Shown here: piece after piece, positions 14,673 to 32,458 of the stretch | How the letters are laid out: each line of letters starts with the position of its first letter | Numbering within the stretch: position 1 is the stretch's first letter | Source: Corynebacterium ulcerans | Lineage (GTDB): Bacteria > Actinomycetota > Actinomycetes > Mycobacteriales > Mycobacteriaceae | Reading direction: 5' to 3' | Length of the DNA stretch: 64,000 bases | Assembly: GCF_900187135.1 (NCBI RefSeq) | Contig: NZ_LT906443.1 | Coordinates: forward strand, 2,108,001-2,172,000 | Notes under the pieces: model-generated | Seen by the model: only the letters and a program-made list of their open reading frames with translations | The model's database searches: none | What the model was told of the DNA's origin: nothing | Program-made: the position numbers and the translations under genes

Positions 14673-14749
<77 letters not shown>

Positions 14750-15361: not shown

Positions 15362-15388
15362 AAATCCCCACACTAGTGTGGGGATTTT
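15362..15388. terminator. Bidirectional terminator between convergent genes
   Basis: Perfect palindrome with arms AAATCCCCACAC and GTGTGGGGATTT separated by two bases, with T-tracts on both strands. It serves the PH-domain gene and the minus-strand operon ending at 15426. Confidence 0.9.
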
Positions 15389-15425: not shown

Positions 15426-16268
15426 TCAATTCCAATAGAGCGATTCACGAGACTTCTCACCGGATTGGTCCCAGTCAAAGCGGACAGACTGCGCTTGCTT
15501 ATTGTTCTCCGAGTCTTGATTTTTAGGGAATACTCCGATGCTTCCGCGTGCGTACACATGGTTGACCTTCAGCTGTGACTCCGATGTCGGTATGCGGTTG
15601 GAAGCTGGGATGCCACAAGCGTTGTCTGCGCCACCGTTGAGATGAAGGGCATTGTCACCCGAGCCAGTTGCTGGCATCAGGGTAGGGGCGGTGACGGCCG
15701 TGTGCTCGGCGTCGGCAAGCCCGGAGAGCGCGAGAGGATCGTCAGAACCTTTGGGGATTGCTCCTAGGAATTCAACGTCGTAGGCGTAGCACATGAAATG
15801 TGACACCTCGTCGGTCTCACTGGCGTTGAGGAGGCTGACCCGCTCTGATGGTAGGCGAACGCCGTCGTGGGCAGTGACAGCCCAGACGAGATAACGGCCT
15901 TCAGTGTCCTCAGTAACTACATGTGCGGGTTCACCGAATTTCAGTTTTGTGCCAAAAGGAGTCATTTTGACTTCTTTACCGTTGGGATAGAGCAATACTG
16001 CTTGCTCAGAGAGCTCTTCAGAAGGCTGTTCTGCGTTTGCCTTAGCAGGTTCTGGGAGATCCTTCTTGTTCACCACATCGTTATGTTTATTAGCGGTGAC
16101 TTTTTTCTCCAACGTTGGCTTGTCTTTGTTAGACGGATGTGGGTGGAATCCTGCCCGTTCGTCTGCTCCGCATGCTGCGATCAGAGTGGTAAGCGTGACG
16201 ACAGCAGAGAGCTTAAGGGCCGAGGCTCCCAATGAGTAATGCGTTTTAGCCCAGTGCGACTTTGACAT
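15426..16268 (-). CDS. Secreted lipoprotein, third gene of Pls/PosA-like operon
   Basis: The ATG at 16268 (MSKSHWAK) is chosen: GAGAAAGAGAA lies upstream and the 280-aa product then starts with a proper export signal. Hydrophobic core at about residues 15-32, lipobox LIAAC (Cys about 33). A Lys/Glu-rich linker follows (about 40-80), then a globular region (85-275) with four cysteines (HFMCYAYD, NACGIPAS and others). I recognise no family. The start lies 17 bases after the stop of the membrane acyltransferase-like gene, so it is the last gene of a three-gene operon that begins with the Pls/PosA synthetase. It may be an envelope partner or acceptor for that system; this is inference only. Confidence 0.82.
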   Translation of the reverse strand: MSKSHWAKTHYSLGASALKLSAVVTLTTLIAACGADERAGFHPHPSNKDKPTLEKKVTANKHNDVVNKKDLPEPAKANAEQPSEELSEQAVLLYPNGKEVKMTPFGTKLKFGEPAHVVTEDTEGRYLVWAVTAHDGVRLPSERVSLLNASETDEVSHFMCYAYDVEFLGAIPKGSDDPLALSGLADAEHTAVTAPTLMPATGSGDNALHLNGGADNACGIPASNRIPTSESQLKVNHVYARGSIGVFPKNQDSENNKQAQSVRFDWDQSGEKSRESLYWN

Positions 16269-16285
16269 GGTGTTCTCTTTCTCAA

Positions 16286-17653
16286 TTAGTTTTCTGCAGC
16301 ACTGACAGTTTTGGGGTGAGTCGGGATGAGAGTCTTGCCCACCCGCTTGGAGATTTTTGACACGATTTCTTCTAGAGGGCCACGACCTATAGCAAGGTGC
16401 CATGCGGTGCCAAAGAGTAAAGCGCCTAGAACGTGAAGAATGAACCAGAGCGTGGGTAGTGCCTCGGTAGATTCTTTGAACGCTGCCATCAGGAGTATGT
16501 GAGAGATGTACAGAGTCAGCGTCATTGCTCCAGCAGAGATCAGTGGAATGAAGAGGTTCTTAAGCATCCGGGTGATCACTAGAAAAGAACCGAGAGCCAA
16601 GGTTGCTGCGCCCAGAGAAGTGAGCAAAGAGAACGGTGTGTTGACGTGGGGGCCATTAATAGCCAGCCACCACCATGTATTTGTGGGGATATGAACCTCC
16701 GGGCCGAAGTCAATGACCTGGAGAATGTCTTCTACATCGTAGTTATCGGTGTGGTAGTACAGCTGGGCGAACCCACCTGCGTAGTCAATTAGGAAAGTCG
16801 AGCTAAGGAATCCCGTGATGGCGGCAACCGAGCCAAGAGCGATGAGCCTGGTTTGGGTAATTAACCACTGTAGATTCATACGGCCCAGAGCTATACCTAC
16901 ACAGATGTACGCCATCCACGTGACTACCGGGTAGGTTCCACCGACAAACAGCGTGATGATGGTGTCAACAGGCAGGCTAATCAATGAAGAGAAGCTGGGA
17001 TTAAGCGTAGTGGTGTATCCGCCCCAAGAGTTGACCGCGAAAATCGCTAGGGGACCAGTCGTAATGAATACCGCTGCGAGGATAAGCAGAGTACGAATCC
17101 GTAGGGAGACAAGAGCGACAGCAAGCAGAAACAGCAGACCGTAGTAAGGCAAGATGTTGGATACCGGCAGATTGATCTCGTCGAGAGCTAGGCCGAGCAC
17201 AAAGACGATCAGTGCGCGGACTGCCAGCGATATTCGGTCACGGTGAAGCGAGCTACCGACATGAGGCATGTTTCCGCCGGTAAGAAGCGCAATAGTCACT
17301 CCCGCGAGCAGCGCAAACAATGCAGAAGAATGCCCACCAAACAACTGCCAGATCAAAGTGGGTTGGTCAGTGTATTTGTTATATGCCGGCAGTACATGCA
17401 CGGCGATCATTCCTACGAGAGCGAATCCACGGGCTGCGTCGATACCAATGATTCGTCGCGGGTCAGCCGACGGGCCAAAAGCAAGTTCTTTGTTCCATCG
17501 TGACGGACGAACTTCAGGCTCTGGTGGCGGGCTATACGGCTGGGGTAGTACCTCGGCTTCGCCATCCCAGATAGGACGGACACGTGCTGGGCCTGGTTGT
17601 GGCCTGGTTGCAGCATCCGGTGTTTGAGGCTGCGTAGATATCTGTGATGTCAT
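16286..17653 (-). CDS. Polytopic membrane acyltransferase-like protein (DUF418/DUF1624, HGSNAT-related)
   Basis: The 455-aa protein has a proline-rich cytoplasmic N-terminus (about 1-60), then a RIIGIDAARGFALVGMIAVH motif (67-86) that is the first helix signature of DUF1624/DUF418 and heparan-alpha-glucosaminide N-acetyltransferase-like proteins. About ten to eleven membrane helices follow. The histidine in GMIAVH is the candidate acyl-transfer residue. AAGGAAT lies 6 bases before the ATG. It follows the Pls/PosA synthetase gene by 33 bases and precedes the lipoprotein gene by 17 bases, so all three are probably one transcript. The likely role is acylation or transfer of the synthetase product across the membrane; this is inferred from context. 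Confidence 0.8.
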   Translation of the reverse strand: MTSQISTQPQTPDAATRPQPGPARVRPIWDGEAEVLPQPYSPPPEPEVRPSRWNKELAFGPSADPRRIIGIDAARGFALVGMIAVHVLPAYNKYTDQPTLIWQLFGGHSSALFALLAGVTIALLTGGNMPHVGSSLHRDRISLAVRALIVFVLGLALDEINLPVSNILPYYGLLFLLAVALVSLRIRTLLILAAVFITTGPLAIFAVNSWGGYTTTLNPSFSSLISLPVDTIITLFVGGTYPVVTWMAYICVGIALGRMNLQWLITQTRLIALGSVAAITGFLSSTFLIDYAGGFAQLYYHTDNYDVEDILQVIDFGPEVHIPTNTWWWLAINGPHVNTPFSLLTSLGAATLALGSFLVITRMLKNLFIPLISAGAMTLTLYISHILLMAAFKESTEALPTLWFILHVLGALLFGTAWHLAIGRGPLEEIVSKISKRVGKTLIPTHPKTVSAAEN

Positions 17654-17686
17654 TGTCGATTCCTTGGATGTGGTGAAATCAATCCA

Positions 17687-20600
17687 CTAGCTGGTAAGAA
17701 CGGCTTCTTTAGGGTGAGTATCTTGGATGGTGCTATCAAAAGCGGTGATGCTTTTAGGGTCCTCGACGTAGGAAACAGGGTTTCCTGACCAGACGCTGTC
17801 GTTAGGGATAGCGTCTTGACGCAAGATCAAAGATCCAGGGCCGATAGTCGCCCGATCGCCGATTGATGAGCCCGGAAGAATGAAACTGTTGGGGCCAAGC
17901 GTGGCGCCTGTTCCCATGGTTACTGTTTCCAGAGCCATAACCCGGTCATGGAATAAATGGGTTTGGAGGACAGTGCCTCGGTTGATCGTGGATCTATCTG
18001 ACAGGGTGATCAGATCGAACTCCGGGAGCCACCAGGTCTCGCACCATACGTCACGCCCGATGCGCGTACCCATGAGGCGTAGCCACCAGTTGTAGAGCGG
18101 TGAGCCGAGCGACATTCTGATGAGCGAAGGCACCGCTAGAAGCTCAGCGATATTATCGATGAGCTCGCCGCGCCAAACGAAGGTGGAAAATAGTGTTCGA
18201 TGCCCTGCAGTAAAACGACCTATAAGCAGCCATTTCAACACGATTGGCACGAGGCTGGCGATAATTCCTGCTCCGAGAACGATGGGGAAAGCCCAAAGCA
18301 GAACTGCCTGGATTCCTCCCCATCCACGTCCGCCCGACATGTATGCCAATGTGCCTAGCCAGACGATGAGGAGGTCGAGATAAGCAGCGACGATGACTGG
18401 CAGCAGTCGGAACAACTCGACGAACGCTCGGGCTACTTTGAGACCGGTAGAAGGGTTAAAGGTGCGTGCGACGTCGGCGTCGATATGCGCGCGCGGGATT
18501 TGTCTCGTCGATCTACCAAGCCACGATGTGCCTTTGCCTGGGCGCTCGGGCGTCGAAGAGAGAACCGCAACCAAAGACTCAGCGGGGAGATCGTGGTCAG
18601 GACCGACGATCCCGGAGTTGCCCACGAATGAACCATCACCGAGGACAGTCGTGCCGACGTGGACCCAGCCGTTGTTATAGCGTGCCGATGTACACATGGA
18701 ATGATCTGCAAGGAAGCAACGGTCGCCGATGGCCGTCAAATGCGGAATCGTCTCGACCGTAGAGATCTCAGTGTCCTTGCCAACGCGGGCCCCTAGAAGC
18801 CTAAGGAAAGCAGGGGTGAGCCAACCGGCGTACACGAAATATGTGGAAGTGAGCGTTTTCTGTAGCAGGGTGTGCGTCATCCACAGAGCCCAGCCAGTGC
18901 TGGAGTGAATCGGGAAGTAACCTGGTCGGATCAACAGTGAACACAGGCGAACCAAGATGACGACCAACGCTAGCCAGCAAACGATGGTGAGAATCGCGAA
19001 AAATGGTGTCCATGCCGCCAAGATCAGGAAGACCTCTTGATACTGGAAGTTATTGATTACCGTGGGCAGGACAAGGAAGGTTGCTGGTAGCACTGCCAGA
19101 ACAGGCAGTATGTTCAGCAACGACAATCCGAGGATGTACAGCAGGTGGTGGGAGAAGAATCCCAATCCGGTGACCATGCCGTCGGCGATAGCTTCCTTGG
19201 GAGTTTGGCTCGGCCAACTGGTCCTGCTTGGACCATTGTCGCTTAGCGGATTTCCGCTGTAGCACCGACCTTTGGCAACTGCTCCGGTGACACAGGAACC
19301 AGGAATGATTTCTACGTCGTCGCCAATGGTTGATCCAGGGGAAACGAACGTTCGCATACCAACGCGCACCCGATCACCGACGGTGATAGGCCTGAGATAA
19401 AAGGTGTCGCCGTCGATCCAGTGTCCGTTGATATCGACTTCGTTTTCTAAAACTGAGCCCTCGCCGATTGTTGCTAGCCCAGTGACTGGCGGGAACGTTG
19501 CCAGCGTGGTTCCTTTACCTACTGTGCAGCCAAAGAGTCGGAACAAGAGCGACATTGACGGAGTATCGAGGAGCGGGTCTAGACGCAGATAGGCCAAGAA
19601 GCGCTCGGCCGACCAGATTCGCAGGTGAGTCCAGCCCCCACGTGGGTAGTCGCCAGGTTGGATACGGAAAGTAGCGACGCGAGCCACAATCGCGGCCTGC
19701 AGAATTTTTCCTGGAGTGGAAAAGAGCACGACCATACCGATGAACACCGGCCAGAATGGAACGGTAGGAACCCATGCTGCAGAGAAGAAGAATCCGAGTG
19801 CCCAGACAACAAAAATCGTTCCGACGACATAGCGAGCAACGTTGACAGCGTAGATGCCACAGACGACCAGGAATTGTACGATACCGGACCACCATGGGAT
19901 TTTCTGTGGTAGTGGCCGCTGTTCGGTATCAGTGTGGAGCGTATCTACGTAGTCGGCCATCATCGACAACGTGGGATTGTCGTATAGTGCTCCGATGTCC
20001 AGCGCGGGATGAGATTCCCTCAAAGCGATGGCTAGTTTTGCGATAGCCACGGACGAGCCGCCGAGATCGAAGAAGCTGGAGTTCTCTTCGATCGGAACAG
20101 GTCCAAGCTGGTCTATCCATTTATCGGCAAGCCAACGCAGGTGTTGGGGCAGTGCTTCAACAGAATCACGGGAATCCGGTAGCGGCCAAGGAAGAGCCTT
20201 GCGGTCAACTTTGCCGGAGGTCTTCATAGGGAGCTCATTGACAATGCACAATGTGGGCGCGATTCCACCAGGTAGAACAGTGGACAGATGGGTGCGAGCT
20301 TTGTGCAGATCGATAGTGCCGGGTTTGCCGTTGTCTTCTTCGGGGACAACATAACCGATGATGACGTCGGATCCTGCGGTCGTCGTCTGCTTAGCTGCTG
20401 CTGCAGCAGCTACCCCAGGTACGGAGGCTAGGGCTCGATCGATTTCACCAAGCTCCATGCGACGTCCACCGAATTTGATTTGATCGTCGGCACGGCCTGC
20501 AAAGATGATTCCTTCTTGTTCTGCCACAACAAGGTCACCGGTTCGGTAGGCGCGCTCCCAACCTAGGGACTCCAGAGGAGCGTAGGCTTCGGCATCTTTT

Positions 20601-21691
20601 TCTTGATCGAGGTATCGGCCTAGACCAACACCTGTTACAAGTAGCTCACCAGTTTCTCCCCAACGTACGGGTTCACCGGTCTCAGGATCCACGATGGCTA
20701 ATTGCCAGCCGGGTACTGGTCGGCCGATTCGGACGGGTTCTTTATCCGTCATCGGTTTCATGAGATGACCGGAACAGATGATGGTTGCTTCTGTTGGGCC
20801 ATAGGTGTTCCATAGCTCGCGCCCTGGGGCTGCGAGTCGATTGACAAGCTCTACAGGAAGAGCTTCTCCGCCAAAAATCAATAGGCGTACTGCGGCCAAA
20901 GACTCAGTAGGCCAGAAGGAAGCGAGGGTCGGTACCGTGGAGACAGCAGAGATTTTGTTTCTTGTAATCCATTCACCAAGAGCATCCGCGGAACGAACAA
21001 TATCCCGAGGGGCAGGGACGAGAGCTGCGCCATAACGCCAGGCCAGCCACATTTCTTCACAGGAAGCATCGAAGGCTACGGAGAGGCCTGCCATGACACG
21101 ATCTTGAGGACCAAGCGGGTCATTGACTAGATACATGCGTGCTTCAGCATCGACGAGAGCTGCTGCAGAACGGTGGGACACGGCTACACCCTTGGGCTTA
21201 CCCGTAGATCCGGAAGTGAAGATGATCCATGCATCATCTGCTGTTGTGGGCTCGCAAGGAGTAACCGGAGTGAGATCGTCGCCTCGGAGGTCGAGGGAAA
21301 GCTCTGCACCATAGACTGCGGTGGCATTGGCTTCTTCCCAGACGGTGTTTGCACGAGAGTCCGGGTCGTCCCAGTCAACAGGCACGTAGGCCGCTCCCGC
21401 GCAGATCGTGGCCAGAATTGCTATGTAGAGATCGGTGGTACCTGATGGAACTCGAATGCCAATACGGGCTCCACGCCCAATACCAAGCTGAGCAAGGCGC
21501 TCTACTTGATCGTCGATGCGCTCTGCCAATTGGCTATAAGTCAGAGATTCGTTTGTGCCAATAAGCGCGGTGGCGTTGGGGTAGTGATGTACGGTCTCGC
21601 GGAAAATATCAACGAGTGTGCGTGGGTCGGGGACTGTATCGACGCCGTAAATTGCACAGGTACGGTCGTCGGACGGGAATGGATTTCCCAC
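17687..21691 (-). CDS. Pls/PosA-family non-ribosomal peptide synthetase (A-T plus membrane hexapeptide modules)
   Basis: I use the GTG at 21691 (1334 aa), since AAAGGA lies about 9 bases before it; a TTG 39 bases upstream is the outer limit. An adenylation domain fills about residues 20-490: IFTSGSTGKPKGVAVS (A3), NTYGPTEATI (A5), YRTGDLV (A7), GGRRMELGEI (A8), TSGKVDRKALP (A10). A carrier domain follows with FFDLGGSSVA (phosphopantetheine Ser about 543). After it come three repeats of transmembrane helices plus left-handed beta-helix hexapeptide stretches (about 750-810, 985-1060 and 1225-1300). This is the layout of epsilon-poly-lysine synthetase relatives. No condensation or thioesterase domain is seen. 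The amino-acid substrate cannot be stated. First gene of the operon with the acyltransferase-like protein and lipoprotein. Confidence 0.9.
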   Translation of the reverse strand: MGNPFPSDDRTCAIYGVDTVPDPRTLVDIFRETVHHYPNATALIGTNESLTYSQLAERIDDQVERLAQLGIGRGARIGIRVPSGTTDLYIAILATICAGAAYVPVDWDDPDSRANTVWEEANATAVYGAELSLDLRGDDLTPVTPCEPTTADDAWIIFTSGSTGKPKGVAVSHRSAAALVDAEARMYLVNDPLGPQDRVMAGLSVAFDASCEEMWLAWRYGAALVPAPRDIVRSADALGEWITRNKISAVSTVPTLASFWPTESLAAVRLLIFGGEALPVELVNRLAAPGRELWNTYGPTEATIICSGHLMKPMTDKEPVRIGRPVPGWQLAIVDPETGEPVRWGETGELLVTGVGLGRYLDQEKDAEAYAPLESLGWERAYRTGDLVVAEQEGIIFAGRADDQIKFGGRRMELGEIDRALASVPGVAAAAAAKQTTTAGSDVIIGYVVPEEDNGKPGTIDLHKARTHLSTVLPGGIAPTLCIVNELPMKTSGKVDRKALPWPLPDSRDSVEALPQHLRWLADKWIDQLGPVPIEENSSFFDLGGSSVAIAKLAIALRESHPALDIGALYDNPTLSMMADYVDTLHTDTEQRPLPQKIPWWSGIVQFLVVCGIYAVNVARYVVGTIFVVWALGFFFSAAWVPTVPFWPVFIGMVVLFSTPGKILQAAIVARVATFRIQPGDYPRGGWTHLRIWSAERFLAYLRLDPLLDTPSMSLLFRLFGCTVGKGTTLATFPPVTGLATIGEGSVLENEVDINGHWIDGDTFYLRPITVGDRVRVGMRTFVSPGSTIGDDVEIIPGSCVTGAVAKGRCYSGNPLSDNGPSRTSWPSQTPKEAIADGMVTGLGFFSHHLLYILGLSLLNILPVLAVLPATFLVLPTVINNFQYQEVFLILAAWTPFFAILTIVCWLALVVILVRLCSLLIRPGYFPIHSSTGWALWMTHTLLQKTLTSTYFVYAGWLTPAFLRLLGARVGKDTEISTVETIPHLTAIGDRCFLADHSMCTSARYNNGWVHVGTTVLGDGSFVGNSGIVGPDHDLPAESLVAVLSSTPERPGKGTSWLGRSTRQIPRAHIDADVARTFNPSTGLKVARAFVELFRLLPVIVAAYLDLLIVWLGTLAYMSGGRGWGGIQAVLLWAFPIVLGAGIIASLVPIVLKWLLIGRFTAGHRTLFSTFVWRGELIDNIAELLAVPSLIRMSLGSPLYNWWLRLMGTRIGRDVWCETWWLPEFDLITLSDRSTINRGTVLQTHLFHDRVMALETVTMGTGATLGPNSFILPGSSIGDRATIGPGSLILRQDAIPNDSVWSGNPVSYVEDPKSITAFDSTIQDTHPKEAVLTS

Positions 21692-22477
21692 CGAAAGAGT
21701 TCCTTTCAATTGGGTTGGGTTTGCCTCCAAAATCGCTATTGGAGACCCTGATGTCAGTGGGCTGTCGCCTCAGATGTAATCTGTATGCCTTGTATGCTCA
21801 GTGTTGCTGAATAAGAAGATAAGAACAACGGGATCTCAATCTAATAACATCTTCAGTTTGTGTGCAAATTGATGAAAAATTGGTATTTACACTAGTTGTG
21901 ATAGTTATTTTCTTAAATTTGCTGGTCATGGAAACTTTTTCACTGGAACCCTGAGCGGACTTTGTAAAAAGTCCAAATGTGAGTTTGGACGCATTCGCGG
22001 GGGTAAATATGGGGATAGGGTGCAATTTGACAAGGGGGAGGTAATCAATCTTTTGGATAACCCTGCATTTTTATTTGAAGGAAACTATCGGGGGCGAATT
22101 TCGGAATTTTTAGCAGGACTATCTGCGAACATCTTTTTGTATTGATCCGTTTTTCCTGATTACGTGACAAATGTTTTGGATAGCTTTGCGATGCAAAGGT
22201 TCCTGTTTGTAAAAAGCTGCTGGGGTAAATAAGGGGCTGTATTTGGTCCTATTGGGGAATCTGGCCGGGGTATATGTGGGAAATTGGCGTTTTTGACCTA
22301 AGGGTTATTGTCGGACGCTAATTAATTGGGTTTTCTTAATTAATTGATCCAAATGCTGAATTTTGAATATGCTGACACAGGCGGGTTAAAGTTACTTATT
22401 TGTTATTTCGGAAAATAAATTGATGAAAATCTCAGTTTATTGTCGATGTCCTGGCTTTAATGGAATTGGGAATAAAA
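21692..22477. other. AT-rich divergent intergenic region
   Basis: About 790 bases with no supported gene; several short open frames lack ribosome binding sites and family signals. It is visibly richer in A+T than the flanking genes. TAATTAATTG occurs twice (22319-22328 and 22337-22346), each copy containing the palindrome TTAATTAA. The region must contain promoters for the Pls/PosA operon (minus) and the adhesin gene (plus), and it leaves an unusually long leader for one or both. Confidence 0.6.
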
Positions 22478-25400
22478 ATGTATAGGGAAGCCTCGCGTAA
22501 CTGGCGAGTACTTGTGAATCGTTTAATAAAAGCTGTACATATATCGCAAGGGATATGTGTAGCTGCCATTGTTGCTCTGGTGTTTTCTGTTTTAAGCGTT
22601 GCGGCTGGAACACCAACTGCCCATGCCCAAAATAGGGAATGTGCAGGGACGTGGGACAACCTCAAGTGGGAGGAGGGGAGTGGGGTAAAAAATGGTAGTT
22701 ATACGAACGTAAGCCAGTTTGCTGTTGCAAGCTTTGATTGGTCGGTTCCTGATACTGCGAAAGCAGGAGAAACCTTTACGTTGAAATTGCCAGATCAGCT
22801 AAAGCCTGCGTCGGGTATTTCAACTTCCTTTGAGCTGAAAGATGCAAGCGGCATAAAAGTTGCCGATGCCGCTTGGGAAGGCAAGACTCTTAGGATCACT
22901 CTTGCTGATTATGCGAATTCTCGTTTCAATGTGAAAGGCCAAGCCCGTGTATCGCTTGAATGGGATCGAAGTGGTATCGATACAAACCGCGGATATGACA
23001 GCAAAACTGATGGATCACTGAACTTTACTGGTTGTGGTAACGGTGGCCTTGAAGGCGTCTACCCTAAAGATGGTCCTTCTGGCGATACACATGAAAATGC
23101 CAAAAGAGGGCAATATGATGGCGAATATGTAGTGGAAGGAACTTCTTACTACCTTACTCGTTGGACGGTTTACGTTGATGGCAGGACTAAAGGAACCGAT
23201 GGAATTAATGATTTCACGGTTACAGACACTGCCCCTGATGGGCACAAATTTGTTTGTGATTCCAAATACAACAGGGGATTGATACCTACTGAAGTAGGGA
23301 CTTTTTATCAAAGTGCTTACCAAAGGGACCGAATCATTGATGCTGATGAGAGAAATCAGGGTGGGTATTACGCAGGCGTAACCGCGAACGGAATGCTTCA
23401 CACAGGTTATGGGTTTGAGCTGAACTGTTCAGCGAATCAACTCACAGTCCGCTTTCCGTATGGAGTATCACAAAATTCTGGCCCACTCGTTAATTTCTAT
23501 ACTTACACCACCGAGCGGCCACAGCCTTTCTCTACTCAGAAGAACACGGCTTATATCAGCGATAAACAGGTAGAAGGTTTCACCTATATTCCGGGTGCAG
23601 ACGGGTCGGGGTCTGGCAATACTGGCGGCTTCTCGATTAAGAAAGTTGTTATGGGTGGTGCTGGAGCTCAGATCCCAGCGTCATTCAAATTTAATTACAA
23701 GTGCGTGCGCGAGTCGACGACACTCGAGAACACCATTGAGGTTTCTCCGAATAACGGTTTTGTCCACGTCAAAGACATTGAAAAGGGCATGCGTTGTGAG
23801 ATTACGGAAGTTTCCCAAGAAACCACAGCACCGAAGCCACGTTTAACATGGGAAATAGATGGTAAACCTGCGGACAAGGCTGAATTTGAAGCGCGCTCTC
23901 CGGAAGAGAAATCCATCGACCTCATCGCAATTAACACGTACGACTCCACGCCTAAAACTGGAACATTCACTATTACTAAGAAAGTTTCCGGCTGGGATGA
24001 GGAAAAAGCGAAAGGCAAAGAGTTCACCTTTAGCTACCAATGTGAAGCTGCTGGGCATGCCGAAGTTAAGGGAGAAATCCAGGTAAAGGGCAATGCGCAG
24101 AAGACACCCGTCTCGCAGCAGATTCCTGTTGGTGCAAAGTGCAAAGTCACTGAAAAAACTGACAGCGCGCAGATCGAGGGATACTCGTTAAAGACGACGG
24201 TCACTCCGGAAGAAGTGACTATCACAGACACAGAAGGCGATAACGCGGTTGGCTTTGAAGCTGTTAACCAGTACGAAAAGACTGCAGGAACTTTCCGGAT
24301 TGAGAAGCAGCTGGTGGGTGCGGAGGACGTCGTTAAGCAGCTAGAAGACCGCGAATTTACCTTCAAATACACGTGCGGCAACGATGCTGAAGCTACAGCA
24401 AAAGTTTCTAAGAATAAGCCGTTTGAATCGAGCAAGCAGTATCCCCTAGGAACCGAATGCACGGTGAAGGAAGAGACCGCGGGTACTGAGGTTAAGGACC
24501 AAAAGTGGTCTCATACGCTTACTCCTGCTGATGGAAAGATCAAGATCAGTGCAGAAAACACTGCAAAGGTAGTGGCCTCGAATACGTACACGCCGGTTCC
24601 TAAGGGGCGGTTTACCGTGAATAAGAAGATCGAGGGATCGGCTGCTTTGCTTGCAGATGAGTCTGTGCAGAATCGTAAATTCAAGGGTCAGTATCGCTGC
24701 GGTACTCAAGACTGGACTCAGTTCGAGTTTTCTGTGAAGGAACCTTTCGTTTCTCCTGAATACCCAGAAGAAACTTCATGTCACATAGAAGAACACACCA
24801 ACAGTACGGAAATTCCTGGTTTCACGTGGTCAGGGGCAAACGACAACAAGGAAGAGTTGTCGATCCTGCGTGACAACAATGCAAACATTCAGGTTGAACT
24901 GATCAATAAGTACACCCAGAAAGTCGGTGGTTTTAAGCTCACCAAGTTTGTTGATGGCCCTGCGGCTTCGTTGGCAAAAGACATTGAGTACAAGTTCGAT
25001 TATGTCTGCGGCGAGAAAACAGGCTCGCTCAAAGTCAAGGAAGGTCAGACCGTCGATGGTCCCACAGATATTCCTATCAATACGAACTGCACTATTACGG
25101 AATCCGAGGTTGATGTCCCAGCCGGTGTGACGTGGCTAGGTACACTCCCCAACGGTGGAAAGTTCACCATTAAAGAAGGCGAAACCGTTGATATTCATGC
25201 CAAGAATACTTTTGAGCATTCCAAGGGTGGGTTCTCGATTCTCAAGACCGTAGGCGGAGACGCTTCAGATCTCGATGCATTGAAGTCAAAGCAGTATGAG
25301 TTTACCTATGTCTGTGAGCAACCAAATGGTCAGCCAGTTAAAGGCAGTATCAGTACAACTCCTGGAAAGAGCGTTACGGTTAAAGACATACTTGTTGGTT

Positions 25401-26491
25401 CTGAGTGCAAGGTAACGGAGACTCAGTCTGATTATCCGAACGTTGACTGGTTGGTTGAGTTTTCAGGTGAAGGCGTGGAAGTCGAGGGAAACAAGGCAAC
25501 GTTTAGGATTGCGGATCACAATAAGCCTTCAGTCAATCTGAAAGCAAAGAACACTTTCACTCAATATAAGGGCGGGTTCTCTCTTGAGAAGACTGTCGCG
25601 GCTGAAGACGGGATCAAGACCCCTCAGAAGTTTGACTTCACATGGACATGTGGCAACGTGAACGGTGAGGTGAAAGTACCAGTTGAAAACGGCAAGGGGT
25701 CCGTGGACGTCTCTGAAGAGATCCCTGTTGGTACTTCTTGCGTGGTGGTTGAAAAAGACGCCAAGGTTGCTGGAACGGAACTAGTGACAGAGTGGAAAAA
25801 TCAAAGATTCACCATTGGAAAGAAATCGGAAATTGTTCGGGTTTCCGCGAAGAACACCTATACGCATGAGACTGGCGGATTCCTCATCGAGAAACAAATT
25901 ATCGGTGGTGCTAGGGATAAGGCAGCAGATAAGACGTTTACATTCGATTATGTTTGCACCAAGGATGGTAAAGAAGTAAGAAAAGCGTCCACGCAAATTA
26001 GGGGCGAAGGGCGCTCCGAGCTTATCGACGCCCTACCTGTTGGCACCGAATGCCACATAGAGGAGCACGACGCCAAGATCAGTGGAACGCAGTGGAAACA
26101 CACCATCTCTGATCACGGGAAGTTCAAGATTTCTAGCGCACACGTGACCTACAAGGCAACGGTGGTCAATGGATATGAATCGCTCAATTTCCTTCCGATC
26201 CTCCCGCTGATACCGCTCATCCCGTTGATACCTTTTATTGTTGGACCATCGTCACAACCACCGGTGATTACACCTGTAGCGCCGATGGAAAAGAACCCGA
26301 CAGCGGAGAAACCTCGTGAGGTAAAGACCGCTTCCAAGCGTGATAAGCCTTCATTGGCAAAGACTGGTGCTAATACACTAGGAATTGCTTTGGCTGCGTT
26401 CTTGCTAGTGGGAATGGGGATGTTGTTGGTACGCCGCAATCGGCGAAACACAATAGCCACAAAAGAATCAACCCAGGAAATTAGAGACTAA
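22478..26491 (+). CDS. Large cell-wall-anchored adhesin with eight DUF5979 (CnaB-like) repeats and LAKTG signal
   Basis: The ATG at 22478 (MYREASRNWR, 1337 aa) has GGGA 8 bases upstream; an ATG 18 bases earlier is possible. Signal peptide at about residues 1-49, with AHAQ as the cleavage area. The N-terminal adhesive region (50-375) resembles MSCRAMM-type Ig-like N2/N3 domains. Eight repeats of about 100-115 aa start near residues 382, 494, 604, 710, 817, 917, 1032 and 1133 with GGF/GTF-x-I-x-K. Most have a Cys pair (F-x-Y-x-C and G-x-x-C), a downstream Glu and a closing N-x-Y/F. A hydrophobic PLIPLIPLIP stretch (about 1240-1250) precedes the sorting signal LAKTG (about 1293), a membrane helix and RRNRR. 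It is likely attached by a sortase that accepts LAxTG. Binding target unknown. A strong terminator follows. Confidence 0.9.
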   Translation: MYREASRNWRVLVNRLIKAVHISQGICVAAIVALVFSVLSVAAGTPTAHAQNRECAGTWDNLKWEEGSGVKNGSYTNVSQFAVASFDWSVPDTAKAGETFTLKLPDQLKPASGISTSFELKDASGIKVADAAWEGKTLRITLADYANSRFNVKGQARVSLEWDRSGIDTNRGYDSKTDGSLNFTGCGNGGLEGVYPKDGPSGDTHENAKRGQYDGEYVVEGTSYYLTRWTVYVDGRTKGTDGINDFTVTDTAPDGHKFVCDSKYNRGLIPTEVGTFYQSAYQRDRIIDADERNQGGYYAGVTANGMLHTGYGFELNCSANQLTVRFPYGVSQNSGPLVNFYTYTTERPQPFSTQKNTAYISDKQVEGFTYIPGADGSGSGNTGGFSIKKVVMGGAGAQIPASFKFNYKCVRESTTLENTIEVSPNNGFVHVKDIEKGMRCEITEVSQETTAPKPRLTWEIDGKPADKAEFEARSPEEKSIDLIAINTYDSTPKTGTFTITKKVSGWDEEKAKGKEFTFSYQCEAAGHAEVKGEIQVKGNAQKTPVSQQIPVGAKCKVTEKTDSAQIEGYSLKTTVTPEEVTITDTEGDNAVGFEAVNQYEKTAGTFRIEKQLVGAEDVVKQLEDREFTFKYTCGNDAEATAKVSKNKPFESSKQYPLGTECTVKEETAGTEVKDQKWSHTLTPADGKIKISAENTAKVVASNTYTPVPKGRFTVNKKIEGSAALLADESVQNRKFKGQYRCGTQDWTQFEFSVKEPFVSPEYPEETSCHIEEHTNSTEIPGFTWSGANDNKEELSILRDNNANIQVELINKYTQKVGGFKLTKFVDGPAASLAKDIEYKFDYVCGEKTGSLKVKEGQTVDGPTDIPINTNCTITESEVDVPAGVTWLGTLPNGGKFTIKEGETVDIHAKNTFEHSKGGFSILKTVGGDASDLDALKSKQYEFTYVCEQPNGQPVKGSISTTPGKSVTVKDILVGSECKVTETQSDYPNVDWLVEFSGEGVEVEGNKATFRIADHNKPSVNLKAKNTFTQYKGGFSLEKTVAAEDGIKTPQKFDFTWTCGNVNGEVKVPVENGKGSVDVSEEIPVGTSCVVVEKDAKVAGTELVTEWKNQRFTIGKKSEIVRVSAKNTYTHETGGFLIEKQIIGGARDKAADKTFTFDYVCTKDGKEVRKASTQIRGEGRSELIDALPVGTECHIEEHDAKISGTQWKHTISDHGKFKISSAHVTYKATVVNGYESLNFLPILPLIPLIPLIPFIVGPSSQPPVITPVAPMEKNPTAEKPREVKTASKRDKPSLAKTGANTLGIALAAFLLVGMGMLLVRRNRRNTIATKESTQEIRD

Positions 26492-27348: not shown

Positions 27349-27669
27349 GCCGTTGTAAGGCTCAAAGGGGGGCTGTGTGCTCTGCAGTGAGGTCTTGTCG
27401 TGGTCTTGCAAAGAGCCGTATTTTCGTGTTTTTACTGTCTTTATTGGTGCGCTAAAAACTTTTAGTTGAATTGTGATCTTCATTGCAGCCATGTTGCTGT
27501 GTTCTTTTAGTGAAAGTGGCTTTTAGCTGCGCAATGTGGTGAAAGTCTGTGCGACGGCGTCGAAAAGCTTTATCGATAACTATTACTTGATAGCTTTCAC
27601 CGTGTAGTTTCTCTTTATCGCTTAGTACACAATGTGCTGGGCTTGGTCCGAAAAGGTCGGTCAGATTTT
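27349..27669. other. Intergenic region before the amino-acid permease
   Basis: About 320 bases without a supported gene. It presumably contains the permease promoter; no regulator site can be named. Confidence 0.5.
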
Positions 27670-29109
27670 ATGGCTCATACAGACTCCTCATTTCTTACAG
27701 CGGATCAGGAGGGATACAAAACAACACTGAGTTCACGTCATATCCAGATGATGGCACTTGGTTCTGCGATTGGTACGGGACTCTTTATGGGAGCCGGTGG
27801 GCGTTTGGCCACTGCGGGGCCATCGTTGGTTTTGGCATATCTTATCTGTGGTTTTTTTGCTTTCTTTATTTTGCGTGCCGTAGGAGAACTTGTTTTATAC
27901 CGTGCGTCTTCCGGTGCTGTCGTCTCCTGGACTCGTGAATTCATGGGAGAGCGGGCTGGTTTTGTGGTGGGATGGGTCTACTTCATGATGTGGGCCTTGA
28001 CAGGAATTGCGGACACTACGGCTATCGCGATTTATCTAAAATTCTGGAACCTTTTCTCAGATATCCCGCAATGGGTACTTGCTTTAGCTGCATTAGTTAT
28101 TGTGCTGCTTCTTAATCTCATCTCGGTTCGAGTATTTGGTGAGATGGAATTTTGGTTCGCGATGATCAAAATTGCTGCGATCTGCTTGTTCATGGCTGTT
28201 GCAATCTTTTTTGTGGTGACGGGCCGCATCGTGGTGGATCAACCAGCAGGCTTTGCCAATATTGCTGAACATGGCGGAATCTTCCCTATGGGATTCTTGC
28301 CTTTGGTTGTTGTCATCAGTGGCGTGGTGTTTGCTTACTTTGGTATTGAGCTCATTGGTACGGCAGCAGGAGAGACCAAGGACGCTGAGAAAGAAATGCC
28401 TAAGGCTGTTAACAGTGTTATTTGGCGCATCATTGTGTTCTACTGCGGCTCGGTTATGCTGCTAGCTTTGGTGCTTCCATATACTGCATATTCTGCGGGT
28501 GTCTCGCCGTTTGTGACCTTCTTTGATTCGATAGGCGTTCCTTCTGCTGGCACGATCATGAATTTGGTCGTTATTACTGCGGCTTTGTCTTCGCTCAATG
28601 CTGGCCTGTATTCCACTGGGCGCACTATGCGTACCATGGCTCGTGCTGGGACAGCTCCGGAAATGTTGGGGGCTTTTAATAAGCGAGGTGTTCCTTTTGG
28701 TGGCATCGCGTTGAACTCTACAGTGGTGCTCATCGGCGTGGTCATAAACTACCTTGCTCCGGGTAAGGCTTTTGATATTGCGCTTAATATGACTGCAATC
28801 TGTGTGGTTGTTAACTGGGCTTTTACCATCGTGTGCCATATGCGGATGATTAAGGCGGTAGAGGAACGCCCTGCATTCCGGATGCCGTGGGCTCCTGTGA
28901 CTAACTGGATAACTCTGGGTTTCTTGGTATTGATCGTTATTTTGATTGCTGCTGGTTCCTGGGATGGATTCCTGACGGTGGTGGCATCTGTATGCACGGT
29001 TCCGCTGTTTGTGCTGGGATGGTATGCAACCCGTGGGCAGGTTGAGAAGCGCCGTGCAGAACACGCACGGGTAATTGCAGAAAAGCAAGAGAGCGTTATA
29101 GAGGTTTAA
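27670..29109 (+). CDS. Amino-acid permease, APC superfamily (AnsP/CycA type)
   Basis: I choose the ATG at 27670 (MAHTDSSFL, 479 aa). The hallmark first helix segment of the AAT family is present: LSSRHIQMMALGSAIGTGLF (residues about 18-37), which carries the GSAIGTGLF substrate-binding unwound motif. About twelve membrane helices follow, and FAYFGIELIGTAAGETKDAEK (about 205-250) is the conserved helix 6 region. Members import amino acids such as asparagine, D-alanine, D-serine, glycine or aromatic residues by proton symport. The exact substrate is not decidable here; AnsP/CycA relatives seem closest. Single gene, followed by a hairpin. Confidence 0.88.
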   Translation: MAHTDSSFLTADQEGYKTTLSSRHIQMMALGSAIGTGLFMGAGGRLATAGPSLVLAYLICGFFAFFILRAVGELVLYRASSGAVVSWTREFMGERAGFVVGWVYFMMWALTGIADTTAIAIYLKFWNLFSDIPQWVLALAALVIVLLLNLISVRVFGEMEFWFAMIKIAAICLFMAVAIFFVVTGRIVVDQPAGFANIAEHGGIFPMGFLPLVVVISGVVFAYFGIELIGTAAGETKDAEKEMPKAVNSVIWRIIVFYCGSVMLLALVLPYTAYSAGVSPFVTFFDSIGVPSAGTIMNLVVITAALSSLNAGLYSTGRTMRTMARAGTAPEMLGAFNKRGVPFGGIALNSTVVLIGVVINYLAPGKAFDIALNMTAICVVVNWAFTIVCHMRMIKAVEERPAFRMPWAPVTNWITLGFLVLIVILIAAGSWDGFLTVVASVCTVPLFVLGWYATRGQVEKRRAEHARVIAEKQESVIEV

Positions 29110-29125
29110 GCTTGTCGACGTTCAT

Positions 29126-29167
29126 CGGGTCGCGCGGAACACTATGTTACTGCGTGGCCCGGTTTTT
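29126..29167 (+). terminator. Probable terminator after permease gene
   Basis: Imperfect arms CGGGTCGCGC and GCGTGGCCCG followed by GTTTTT, 16 bases after the stop. Confidence 0.65.
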
Positions 29168-29391
29168 ATGTGCATGGTTATACCAGTGATTTATTGTGAC
29201 TGATTTATGATTTTTTCATTTTAGTGAAAAACTTCACAGGTAATTTTCTAGATATGGGATCGGACATTTCCGAGCGTAAAAAGCCGTTTTACCTTAGAAA
29301 ACAACTCAGTCTGTCCGGTTTTTATTTGGGTTTTGTTGGTTTTGTGATCTATTCCGTGTGAATCTGCCGTGCAACTGAACTCAAATCCGCA

Positions 29392-29397
29392 TAGATT
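29392..29397 (+). promoter_or_regulatory. Candidate -10 hexamer placing a leaderless start at the 5S gene
   Basis: TAGATT ends 7 bases before the ATG at 29405, and no ribosome binding site precedes that ATG. This spacing would start the transcript at the A of the start codon. Leaderless mRNAs are common in corynebacteria; the call here is inference. Confidence 0.4.
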
Positions 29398-29404
29398 GTG
29401 AACT

Positions 29405-30886
29405 ATGAGCCCAAGAAAAATTGGAGTGACCGAGGTCGCTTTACGCGATGCGCATCAGAGCTTGTTTGCAACTCGTATGGCCATGGAAGACATGGTTGAC
29501 GCATGCGAGGACATAGATAAGGCAGGATTCTGGAGCGTCGAGTGCTGGGGTGGTGCAACGTTTGACGCGTGCATCAGATTCCTTAATGAGGATCCCTGGG
29601 AGAGACTTCGCACTTTCCGTAAATTAATGCCAAATTCCAAGCTCCAGATGCTGCTCCGTGGGCAGAACCTTCTGGGATACCGCCACTATGAAGACTTGGT
29701 GGTGGACAAGTTCGTTGAGAAGTCCAAGGAAAACGGCATGGATGTGTTCCGTGTCTTTGACGCTCTCAACGACCCACGCAACCTGGAACACGCTATGCGT
29801 GCGGTGAAGAAAGTCGATGGGCACGCCCAAGGAACCATCTGCTACACCGTTTCACCACTGCATACTGTCGAAGGATATGTTGAGCTTGCGGGCCGACTTC
29901 TAGACATGGGGGCAGATTCCATCGCGCTGAAGGACATGGCAGCGCTGTTGAAGCCTCAGCCGGCATACGATGTTATCCGCGCGATTAAAGAAACCTATGG
30001 CGAAGAGACTCAGATTAACGTCCACTGCCACTCCACAACCGGCGTTACACTCGTGACCTTGATGAAGGCCATTGAAGCTGGCGCAGATGTTGTGGATACT
30101 GCCATTTCTTCGCTCTCCCTCGGCCCGGGACACAACCCCACTGAGTCCCTCGTAGAGATGCTTGAGGGCACCGACTACACCACAGATCTAGACATGGATC
30201 GTCTGATCAACGTCCGCGATCACTTTAAAGCAATTCGCCCGAAGTACAAGGAATTTGAGTCCAAGACGCTGGTGGATACCAATATCTTCCTCTCCCAGAT
30301 TCCTGGCGGCATGCTTTCTAACATGGAAAGCCAGCTCACCGCCCAAGGTGCCGGAGATCGTATTGATGAAGTGATGCGTGAAGTCCCCATCGTTCGTAAG
30401 GATGCCGGATACCCGCCACTGGTCACGCCGTCTTCCCAGATCGTGGGAACCCAGGCTGTCTTCAACGTCCTTATGGGACGCTACAAGGTCATGACTGCAG
30501 AATTCGCGGACCTCATGCTTGGCTACTACGGCGAGTGCATCGGCGAGCGCAATCCTGAAATCGTTGAACAAGCAAAGGCTCAGACTAAGAAGGAAGCCAT
30601 TACTGAGCGCCCGGCTGATCTCCTTGAGCCAGAGTGGGATCACCTTGTGGAGGAAGCCAACAAACTTGAGGGCTGCGATGGTACAGACGAAGACGTACTG
30701 ACCAATGCGCTGTTCCCAGGCGTTGCTCCAGGGTTCTTTAAGAACCGCCCCGAAGGGCCAAAGAACGTGGGTAAGGACCCATCAAAGATCAAGACCCGCG
30801 AGAATGAGGCCGTTCTCGAACCGATTACCTACAAGGTCACCGTGGGCGGTCGCAGCCAGACCGTCAAGGTCGAGCCCGCCGAGTAA
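29405..30886 (+). CDS. Methylmalonyl-CoA carboxyltransferase 5S subunit
   Basis: The 493-aa protein is the pyruvate/oxaloacetate half-reaction enzyme of the biotin-dependent transcarboxylase, related to pyruvate carboxylase CT and oxaloacetate decarboxylase alpha. The N-terminal HMGL-like barrel shows EVALRDAHQSL (metal-binding Asp), GGATFDACIRF (about 49-59), LLRGQN, a carboxylated-lysine region ALKDMAALL (about 178-186) and metal ligands HCHSTTG (about 211-217). The C-terminal conserved carboxylase domain includes PGGMLSNMESQL. It transfers carboxyl from carboxybiotin to pyruvate or the reverse. It is the first gene of 5S-12S-small-1.3S. No ribosome binding site is seen at the ATG, suggesting a leaderless start. 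Confidence 0.92.
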   Translation: MSPRKIGVTEVALRDAHQSLFATRMAMEDMVDACEDIDKAGFWSVECWGGATFDACIRFLNEDPWERLRTFRKLMPNSKLQMLLRGQNLLGYRHYEDLVVDKFVEKSKENGMDVFRVFDALNDPRNLEHAMRAVKKVDGHAQGTICYTVSPLHTVEGYVELAGRLLDMGADSIALKDMAALLKPQPAYDVIRAIKETYGEETQINVHCHSTTGVTLVTLMKAIEAGADVVDTAISSLSLGPGHNPTESLVEMLEGTDYTTDLDMDRLINVRDHFKAIRPKYKEFESKTLVDTNIFLSQIPGGMLSNMESQLTAQGAGDRIDEVMREVPIVRKDAGYPPLVTPSSQIVGTQAVFNVLMGRYKVMTAEFADLMLGYYGECIGERNPEIVEQAKAQTKKEAITERPADLLEPEWDHLVEEANKLEGCDGTDEDVLTNALFPGVAPGFFKNRPEGPKNVGKDPSKIKTRENEAVLEPITYKVTVGGRSQTVKVEPAE

Positions 30887-30901
30887 AGGAGAACCGAAGA
30901 C

Positions 30902-32458
30902 ATGTCTCAAGAACCTACTATGTCTGAGCGCCTAGACCAGCTCGCTAAGGCTCGTCATGAGATCGAGCTAGGCGGCGGCGAAGCTAAAATCGAAAAGCAG
31001 CATGAAAAAGGCAAACTAACAGCTCGTGAGCGCGTCGCAGCGCTTCTCGACGAAGGCACATTCCGCGAAATCGGCATGTTTGCCAAGCATCGCACCACGC
31101 ACTTTGGCATGGATAAAGCAGTCGCGCCGGCAGACGGCGTTGTTACTGGCTCGGGAGCGATTTTTGGTCGTGCCGTCCACGTAGCATCACAGGATTTCAC
31201 CGTGATGGGCGGATCAGCTGGCGAGACTCAGTCCAACAAGGTCGCAGCGATGATGGAAGCTTCTGCTACCACTGGAACTCCTTTCATCTTCATCAACGAC
31301 TCCGGTGGAGCACGCGTGCAAGAGGGAATCGACTCCCTTTCGGGCTACGGCAAGGTGTTCTACCAGAACGTTCTTCTTTCCGGACTTGTACCACAGGTTT
31401 CGATTATCTCGGGCCCATGCGCTGGAGGCGCTGCATATTCGCCTGCTCTGACTGACTTCATCATTCAGACTCGCAAGGCCAACATGTTCATCACTGGCCC
31501 TGGCGTGATTAAGTCGGTCACGGGTGAAGAGGTCACCGCAGATGCTCTAGGCGGAGCAGACGCTCATATGTCTAAGGCCGGAAACATCCACTTCATTGCT
31601 GATGATGACGAGCAGGCGATCCTCATCGCGCAGAAGTTACTGAGCTTCTTGCCACAGAACAATACGGAAGAACCACCGGTTGTTGAACCAGATCCAATCG
31701 TTACTCCCGATGAGGAGCTGCGGGAGATCGTTCCAGTCGATGGAAAGCGCGGTTATGACGTTCGCGATATTATTTCGCGCGTTGTAGACCGTGGCGACTT
31801 CCTTGAAGTGCAGGCTGGATATGCACAAAACCTCGTCGTGGGATTTGCCCGCATCGTAGGCCGTACTGTGGGCATTGTGGCTAACCAACCAAACGTGATG
31901 TCCGGTGTGCTGGACATCAACTCCTCGGATAAGGGAAGCCAGTTCATCCGTTTCTGCAACGCCTTTAACATCCCGCTTGTGACTTTTGTGGACGTTCCAG
32001 GCTTTATGCCGGGTGTTGCTCAAGAACACGGTGGCATCATCCGACATGGCGCCAAGATGCTGTACGCATACTCGGCAGCCAGCGTGCCAAAGATCACGGT
32101 GGAGCTGCGTAAGTCCTACGGTGGAGCGCACCTAGCTATGTGCTCGAAGGACCTGGGAGCTGACCGCGTGTTTGCATGGCCCACTGCAGAAATCGCAGTG
32201 ATGGGCGCAGAAGGCGCAGTCAATGTGGTCTTCCGCAAGGAGATCGAAGCCGCAGAAGATAAGGAAGCCAAGCGCGATGAGCTCATCCGCCTGTACAAGG
32301 AGACTTTCTCCACTCCGTATATGGCAGCCTCCCGTGGCTTGGTTGATGACATCATCGATCCCGCAGAAACCCGCCTGCATATTGCAGATGCGCTTGAGGT
32401 CTTGACCAACAAGCGAGTAGTTCGCCCTGCCAAGAAGCACGGCCTAGGTCCGGTATAA
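30902..32458 (+). CDS. Methylmalonyl-CoA carboxyltransferase 12S subunit
   Basis: The 518-aa protein is an acyl-CoA carboxyltransferase (crotonase fold). The N-terminal half has GSGAIFGR, GGSAGETQSNK and INDSGGARVQEGIDSL, and SGPCAGGAAYSPAL forms an oxyanion hole. The C-terminal half has DVPGFMPGVAQEHGGIIRHGAK and a second oxyanion loop SYGGAHLAM. It moves carboxyl between methylmalonyl-CoA and biotin. A clear AAAGGAGA site lies before the ATG, 15 bases after the 5S stop. It could be mistaken for propionyl-CoA carboxylase beta, but the neighbours (5S and 1.3S subunits) decide for transcarboxylase. Confidence 0.92.
   Translation: MSQEPTMSERLDQLAKARHEIELGGGEAKIEKQHEKGKLTARERVAALLDEGTFREIGMFAKHRTTHFGMDKAVAPADGVVTGSGAIFGRAVHVASQDFTVMGGSAGETQSNKVAAMMEASATTGTPFIFINDSGGARVQEGIDSLSGYGKVFYQNVLLSGLVPQVSIISGPCAGGAAYSPALTDFIIQTRKANMFITGPGVIKSVTGEEVTADALGGADAHMSKAGNIHFIADDDEQAILIAQKLLSFLPQNNTEEPPVVEPDPIVTPDEELREIVPVDGKRGYDVRDIISRVVDRGDFLEVQAGYAQNLVVGFARIVGRTVGIVANQPNVMSGVLDINSSDKGSQFIRFCNAFNIPLVTFVDVPGFMPGVAQEHGGIIRHGAKMLYAYSAASVPKITVELRKSYGGAHLAMCSKDLGADRVFAWPTAEIAVMGAEGAVNVVFRKEIEAAEDKEAKRDELIRLYKETFSTPYMAASRGLVDDIIDPAETRLHIADALEVLTNKRVVRPAKKHGLGPV

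Follow-up and report, generated by a model that had tools for sequence, protein, structure and literature searches.

A Pls/PosA-family synthetase operon with a transmembrane acyltransferase partner in Corynebacterium ulcerans

The operon and its synthetase

The window analysed here is a stretch of 64,000 nucleotides from the genome of Corynebacterium ulcerans (contig NZ_LT906443.1, positions 2,108,001 to 2,172,000). It contains an operon of three minus-strand genes coding for a synthetase of the Pls/PosA family, a protein of the transmembrane acyltransferase (TmAT) superfamily, and a lipoprotein, in that order and separated by gaps of 33 and 17 bases (Table 1). The three genes were found open and intact where a preliminary description of this DNA had placed them. 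An AAAGGA box lies 5' of the GTG start of the synthetase gene, and an in-frame TTG codon is also present at 21730. The start of the lipoprotein gene was set at 16268 because a longer open reading frame, reaching 16403, overlaps the TmAT gene.

Table 1. Features of the operon, with positions counted from the first nucleotide of the window.
Feature	Position	Strand	Details
Pls/PosA-family synthetase	17687..21691	-	1334 aa; GTG start at 21691; TIGR02353 match; closest structure 7wew
Adenylation domain	20174..21658	-	Aligned residue by residue to 7wew; pocket code DAETIGTIIK
Carrier domain	19946..20137	-	PP-binding, 35 bits; FFDLGGSS; phosphopantetheine serine is residue 547 of 1334
Three tandem transmembrane/left-handed beta-helix C modules	17774..19876	-	NRPS_term_dom over residues 619-1319 of the 1347-aa frame
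Transmembrane acyltransferase (TmAT superfamily, HGSNAT/AT3 type)	16286..17653	-	455 aa
Tail motif RPxPG(x)nRxxWxG	17561..17605	-	Cytosolic N-terminal tail, predicted disordered
Catalytic-type motif D72-x2-R75-x10-H86	17396..17440	-	Transmembrane helix 1; from alignments
Lipoprotein	15426..16268	-	280 aa; lipobox LIAAC at Cys33
Palindromic hairpin, possible terminator	15362..15387	-	11-pair stem; between the convergent lipoprotein and PH-domain genes; consensus scan

The synthetase has the layout of its family, with one adenylation (A) domain and one carrier domain, both with their active residues, and three C modules split by membrane helices. Pfam searches returned matches to AMP-binding (E 7e-64), PP-binding (E 2e-8) and hexapeptide repeats, and the family profile NRPS_term_dom (TIGR02353) scored 512.4 bits against a cut-off of 423.1. 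The A-domain motifs FTSGSTGKPKG, NTYGPTE, YRTGD and TSGKVDRKAL are present, and the carrier serine was aligned in 70/70 homologues. The C modules could be recognised as internal repeats by pairwise BLAST (C1/C3, E 3e-12; C1/C2, 2e-5; C2/C3, 7e-4), and hydrophobic segments group near residues 600-670, 850-915 and 1085-1148, with two further stretches within the A domain. No match to the condensation domain PF00668 was obtained in the genomes G000, G043 and G173. These data upheld the earlier assignment of a single-module Pls/PosA synthetase with three C modules. An inactive A domain and carrier, named beforehand as one way in which the proposal might fail, was not supported, the motifs and the carrier serine being present and apparently intact. 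The genome also contains two genes of the phosphopantetheinyl transferase superfamily, which are candidates for activating the carrier.

The closest solved structure to the A domain is 7wew, the A domain of the epsilon-poly-L-lysine synthase of Streptomyces albulus (583 bits, 58.8% identity over the aligned domain). The ten positions of the substrate pocket code were assigned through the 7wew alignment, at motif positions that we presume to be those of the code. The code agrees with that of S. albulus (DAETIGTVVK) at 8/10 positions, with Val replaced by Ile at positions 8 and 9. Asp and Glu are retained, and position 2 is Ala, where the ornithine enzyme PosA has Met. This position has been proposed to set the chain length of the substrate, Phe going with short diamino acids, Met with ornithine and Ala with lysine (PMC10522769; here and below, papers are cited from the parts of their text that were available). 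Since the pocket fits that of the lysine enzyme, including Ala at the chain-length position, lysine is the likely substrate, a change peculiar to the clade (see below) leaving room for a close analogue. The pocket check suggested in the preliminary description thus gave a lysine-type code, and its proposal of an amino-acid homopolymer as the putative product is retained.

A sporadic synthetase clade paired with an acyltransferase

The C. ulcerans genome, a single contig of 2,453,761 bases, encodes two full-length members of the family, besides three weak partial matches. In the family profile search the window synthetase scored 515 bits and the second synthetase, at C1:1089855-1093637, scored 768 bits. 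The second one has the exact S. albulus pocket code and belongs to the common kind. Of 201 Corynebacterium genomes, 153 had one or more matches to the family, whichever the kind (E 1e-60). A sample taken at family level gave matches to the window protein in 136 of 151 genomes, none besides the window gene exceeding 1185 bits. The window kind has a sporadic distribution: copies with no less than 53% identity were found in at least 31 of the 201 Corynebacterium genomes, with further broken copies in G150 and G176, and it occurs as well in Kocuria, Rothia, Yaniella, Brevibacterium and Arthrobacter. The nearest named relative by the window synthetase gene is C. silvaticum (95% identity). The window clade was monophyletic in FastTree trees, with local support of 0.986 for A domains (41 distinct ones from this clade) and 0.979 for full-length proteins; its spread across families may point to horizontal transfer. 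In the C. ulcerans genome, genes for a MarR-type regulator and for a lipase-like protein stand ahead of the second synthetase (L067:5104-10656), and the same MarR cluster was seen in 13 compared loci, at common-clade synthetases.

The code DAETIGTVVK was read in 21/21 common-clade sequences. Within the window clade, position 9 is Ile in 48/48 readable rows (L032, unreadable, was left out), position 8 is Val or Ile, and Thr is replaced by Ser at position 7 in two relatives. Position 9 corresponds in PosA to Ser313, which contacts the substrate (PMC10522769), and the constant exchange at this place would fit a clade that makes a different polycation from a relative of lysine, such as ornithine, diaminobutyrate or beta-lysine. 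We consider this rather improbable, given that the rest of the pocket agrees with the lysine enzyme, Ala at position 2 included, and that no aminomutase or diamino-acid synthesis family was found among the window neighbours scanned.

The protein encoded by the second gene matched PF07786 with 39.7 bits (cut-off 22) and PF01757 with 27.5 bits, below the gathering cut-off of 31. It shows the features of the TmAT superfamily, namely a predicted 10-helix TmAT fold, DxxR, FxxxxG and an Arg in helix 3. Residues D72, R75, F113, G118 and R146 were invariant in 43 aligned sequences, and the D, R and H of the catalytic-type motif were kept together in 40/43 of another sequence set. A DxxRx10H motif has been described for AT3 proteins, and in HGSNAT the AT3 His of helix 1 is replaced by Asn (PMC12423673); His86 was present in 48/48 homologues, and the Asn of HGSNAT proper is absent at that place. 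A sequence search of the TmAT protein against solved structures gave no match. The PF07786 match and the predicted HGSNAT fold support the earlier view of an acyltransferase-like, HGSNAT-type partner. The acceptor of HGSNAT is an amine, according to the abstract of PMC11357348.

The TmAT gene is the next gene on the same strand, within 600 bases, in 50/50 window-clade loci with at least 1.2 kb downstream. These were drawn from 55 unique loci, five of which were excluded from this count for having fewer than 400 bases after the synthetase; the 55 loci are not independent, as they include gene halves on two contigs (L128/L129, L130/L131, L030/L034), pairs from the same genome, and close species. 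A same-strand TmAT partner was found in 0/21 common-clade loci, which consist of the window genome's own locus and 20 others picked by hand, not at random, from more than 100 listed; one weak match, at L146, lies on the opposite strand. The pairing was seen likewise from whole-genome coordinates, Micrococcales included. Further neighbours of the paired loci differ: the lipoprotein accompanies 12/55 loci, a probably secreted hydrolase-like protein 32/55 (both occur together in 2), and a phosphopantetheinyl transferase-like protein 12/55, each of them being found in 0/21 common-clade loci. The queries for these neighbour counts included proteins drawn from some of the counted loci. Since the TmAT accompanies the synthetase in 50/50 loci but the other neighbours each in a part of the 55, the synthetase with the TmAT forms the stable core of the operon, the third gene changing from lineage to lineage. 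In the neighbourhood comparison called for in the preliminary description, a loss of conservation between the partners, which would have told against the operon, was not observed for the TmAT; the conservation of the lipoprotein is weaker than that description had implied.

Genes of TmAT type are common, 65/201 Corynebacterium genomes having a match at E 1e-10, and the TmAT might on that account be an unrelated neighbour brought there by chance synteny. This explanation was rejected as very improbable, being contradicted by the contrast of 50/50 with 0/21 loci, which holds across families and with differing further neighbours. The earlier remark that the pairing looked undescribed still stands, no description of an acyltransferase-Pls pairing having been found in the open-access literature, with most subscription papers lying outside the search; the available parts of PMC12113857, PMC2830990 and PMC12188740 contain nothing on the operon. 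It is the pairing with the TmAT that looks new, the kind of synthetase being already known.

The partnered TmAT proteins carry a short motif, [PS]G-x(3,6)-[RK]-x(1,3)-W-x-G, before helix 1. It was found in 41/43 proteins, the two misses being a second, unpaired copy (L009_20) and one in which a frame change truncates the start (L026_12), and in 47/50 paired loci, where L023 has no motif, L031 has Ala for the last Gly, and the frame of L125 is broken. Among unpaired relatives the motif was present in 0/24 rows, which represent 23 distinct genes (L112_1 and L171 are the same gene) and one of which, L022_9, adjoins a paired locus on the other strand. A second control covered 17 unpaired copies, each read over the whole frame between stop codons; 15 were new, and of these 14 came from Kocuria-type and Rothia genomes. 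It gave 2 matches, a near-identical pair lying 5' of the probable start codon. When 1154 other reading frames were scanned over their first 150 residues, 3 matched, one of these being a TmAT fragment at a contig end. In the structure model the tail had a predicted local distance difference test score (pLDDT) near 50, as for a disordered segment. Since this short motif is conserved in a disordered cytosolic tail and kept beside the synthetase, it resembles a docking peptide.

Variable neighbours, flanking genes and the link to nrpS1

The lipoprotein had no Pfam or NCBIfam match; its homologues fell into 4 clusters in the protein search, and its structure model was too poor to read (pLDDT 48.7). 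It might be thought of as a receptor for a chain whose end is capped or lipidated by the TmAT, the polymer then being anchored in the envelope with a structural and not an antimicrobial role. Such an arrangement is improbable, since the lipoprotein was not found in 43/55 loci (some of which break off at a contig end), and the model offers nothing readable in its favour.

The hydrolase-like protein, located near the synthetase at L117, L120, L127 and 29 other loci, is conserved and probably secreted and could be a polymer hydrolase. It showed GxSxG in the two copies displayed and no Pfam family in the two scanned, and a search with one distant query, run with no positive control, gave no match in the window genome.

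The genome of C. pseudotuberculosis FRC41 has been reported to contain two nonribosomal peptide synthetase (NRPS) genes, nrpS1 (cpfrc_00565) and nrpS2 (cpfrc_01801), and a secreted trypsin-like protease encoded by cpfrc_00562 (PMC3022926). Genome G043 is of C. pseudotuberculosis type by its TmAT, which shows 87% identity, as does the C. pseudotuberculosis protein P0122. Its gene row comprises a trypsin-like protease, a split lipoprotein frame, the TmAT and the synthetase, with a spacing that fits cpfrc_00562 to cpfrc_00565. On the basis of this match, the window synthetase is probably the orthologue of nrpS1, as judged through the G043 locus. The split lies at L174:6609-7456 (-), where the signal-peptide part of the lipoprotein is separated from the rest. 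An NRPS-like gene tag was up 44-fold in macrophages, which of the two genes being left unspecified in the available text (PMC3022926). An acyl-CoA carboxylase tag also appeared in the macrophage study, for which one of the window carboxyltransferase genes (below) would be a conceivable counterpart.

The operon had been described as closed by a terminator. An 11-pair hairpin does stand just after the lipoprotein gene, but terminator-like sites in the region are at chance level (7, against a mean of 6.6 in shuffled sequences). Another hairpin, with a T run after it, occurs at 21971-21990 (-) within the long leader from which the synthetase gene is read, terminator-like sites being equally at chance level there. 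Divergent from the operon, an LPXTG surface protein is encoded at 22460-26491 (+); it contains a Big_8 domain as well as eight DUF5979 repeats, and in the C. silvaticum locus L006 matches to it fall into several separate pieces. Beyond it, at 27634-32458 (+), lie an amino-acid permease gene and genes for two carboxyltransferase-type subunits, 94-99% identical in the C. pseudotuberculosis-type genome. At L173 (G007:C2:527000-546500), in a relative whose UPF0182 protein is 76% identical, neither the operon nor the surface protein had a match in the same slot, and the locus is therefore variable; in the window, a tRNA-Met gene (14673-14747) lies close by.

Proposed function and comparison with known systems

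The favoured reading, to which we give a probability of roughly 0.45, is that the operon makes an isopeptide homopolymer of L-lysine and acylates it as it leaves the cell. Pls would activate lysine, the carrier domain would hold it, and the C modules would join side chain to carboxyl and help the chain to leave the cell. Like the enzymes whose motifs and predicted fold it shares, the TmAT would take an acyl group from acyl-CoA in the cytosol and deliver it across the membrane to an external acceptor; it would acylate, most likely acetylate, the free alpha-amino groups or the chain end of the emerging polymer, perhaps while tethered by its N-terminal tail motif to the synthetase or to another cytosolic partner. 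Such acylation may lower the positive charge of the polymer and its toxicity for the producer, or change where the polymer stays; the lipoprotein would be a lineage-specific accessory on the outer face.

A Corynebacterium homologue has a known product: the Pls of C. variabile, whose operon includes a peptidase, makes epsilon-poly-L-lysine in S. coelicolor, C. variabile itself giving no polymer under the conditions tried (Jiang et al. 2021, PMC8117764). The preliminary description had stated that no product was known for this species group, which was too strong in view of this result; its suggestion of display on the envelope is touched by none of the observations. Several observations weigh against the favoured reading. 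The Pls gene alone sufficed for the C. variabile polymer in S. coelicolor (PMC8117764), and a TmAT partner is therefore unneeded for synthesis. TmAT relatives also stand apart from synthetases, as in G087 and as extra copies in G154, and Kocuria-type genomes have many unpaired TmATs (in G344, 9 matches, 2 paired and 7 unpaired). The exchange of Val for Ile at pocket position 9 extends over the whole clade, so the amino acid could differ. Finally, outer-loop charge was considered as a sign of a cationic acceptor and gave a null result: the net charge was -9.1 in 43 rows taken as paired and -7.7 in 20 unpaired (p 0.37), and the largest outer loop alone gave p 0.08.

The best-known role of AT3-type enzymes is the modification of surface sugars (PMC12423673), and a plain epsilon-poly-lysine could be made while the TmAT acylates an envelope component (peptidoglycan, arabinogalactan or lipoglycan), lowering the binding of the polycation and protecting the producer. 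Strict pairing fits such immunity as well as it fits modification of the polymer. A peptidase neighbour occurs elsewhere, in C. variabile, whose gene may belong to either clade (PMC8117764), and at the common-clade locus L147, and the unpaired copies in Kocuria-type genomes show that such enzymes have other substrates. We hold this explanation to be unlikely, though worth serious weight, because an enzyme acting on the envelope would have no need of contact with the synthetase or another cytosolic partner, and such contact is what the tail motif suggests.

A wider and more tentative proposal is one that we judge doubtful at present: a second kind of Pls system, in which a tail-docked membrane complex of TmAT and synthetase would make, export and acylate polylysine in one pass, would have spread between Micrococcales and Corynebacterium and been taken up as nrpS1 by the ulcerans/pseudotuberculosis group. 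Were this true, polylysine biosynthesis would have a tailoring branch with a built-in membrane acyltransferase in corynebacteria and in Kocuria and its relatives; a testable product would be at hand for a synthetase that has counted among the candidate virulence factors of C. pseudotuberculosis since 2010; and polylysines of altered charge, a chemically modified form of an antimicrobial natural polymer, would be within view.

Among known systems, the Pls enzymes of S. albulus and C. variabile share with the window synthetase the A domain, the carrier and the three membrane C modules, with no condensation or thioesterase domain. The S. albulus enzyme has nearly the same lysine pocket, from which the window clade differs by Ile at position 9. 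Described Pls operons contain a PldII-type peptidase (PMC8117764), and an M1 peptidase follows the common-clade synthetase at L147; the window operon has a TmAT and a lipoprotein instead. PosA, the delta-poly-L-ornithine synthetase of Acinetobacter baumannii, is of the same family and architecture, but has Met at pocket position 2, where the window enzyme has Ala, and its operon consists of a single gene (PMC10522769). The nrpS1 gene of FRC41 is the probable orthologue of the window synthetase gene, as judged from the G043 locus, which differs by its split lipoprotein frame; nrpS1 has been entered as an NRPS gene and a possible virulence factor and nothing more, no product being proposed in the available part of the source (PMC3022926). 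With HGSNAT and AT3 enzymes such as OafB (PMC12423673), the window TmAT shares the predicted 10-helix fold, DxxR, FxxxxG, the helix-3 Arg and the AT3 His. It differs from them in having no extra outer domain within its 455 residues, in its tail motif, and in its strict pairing with a peptide synthetase.

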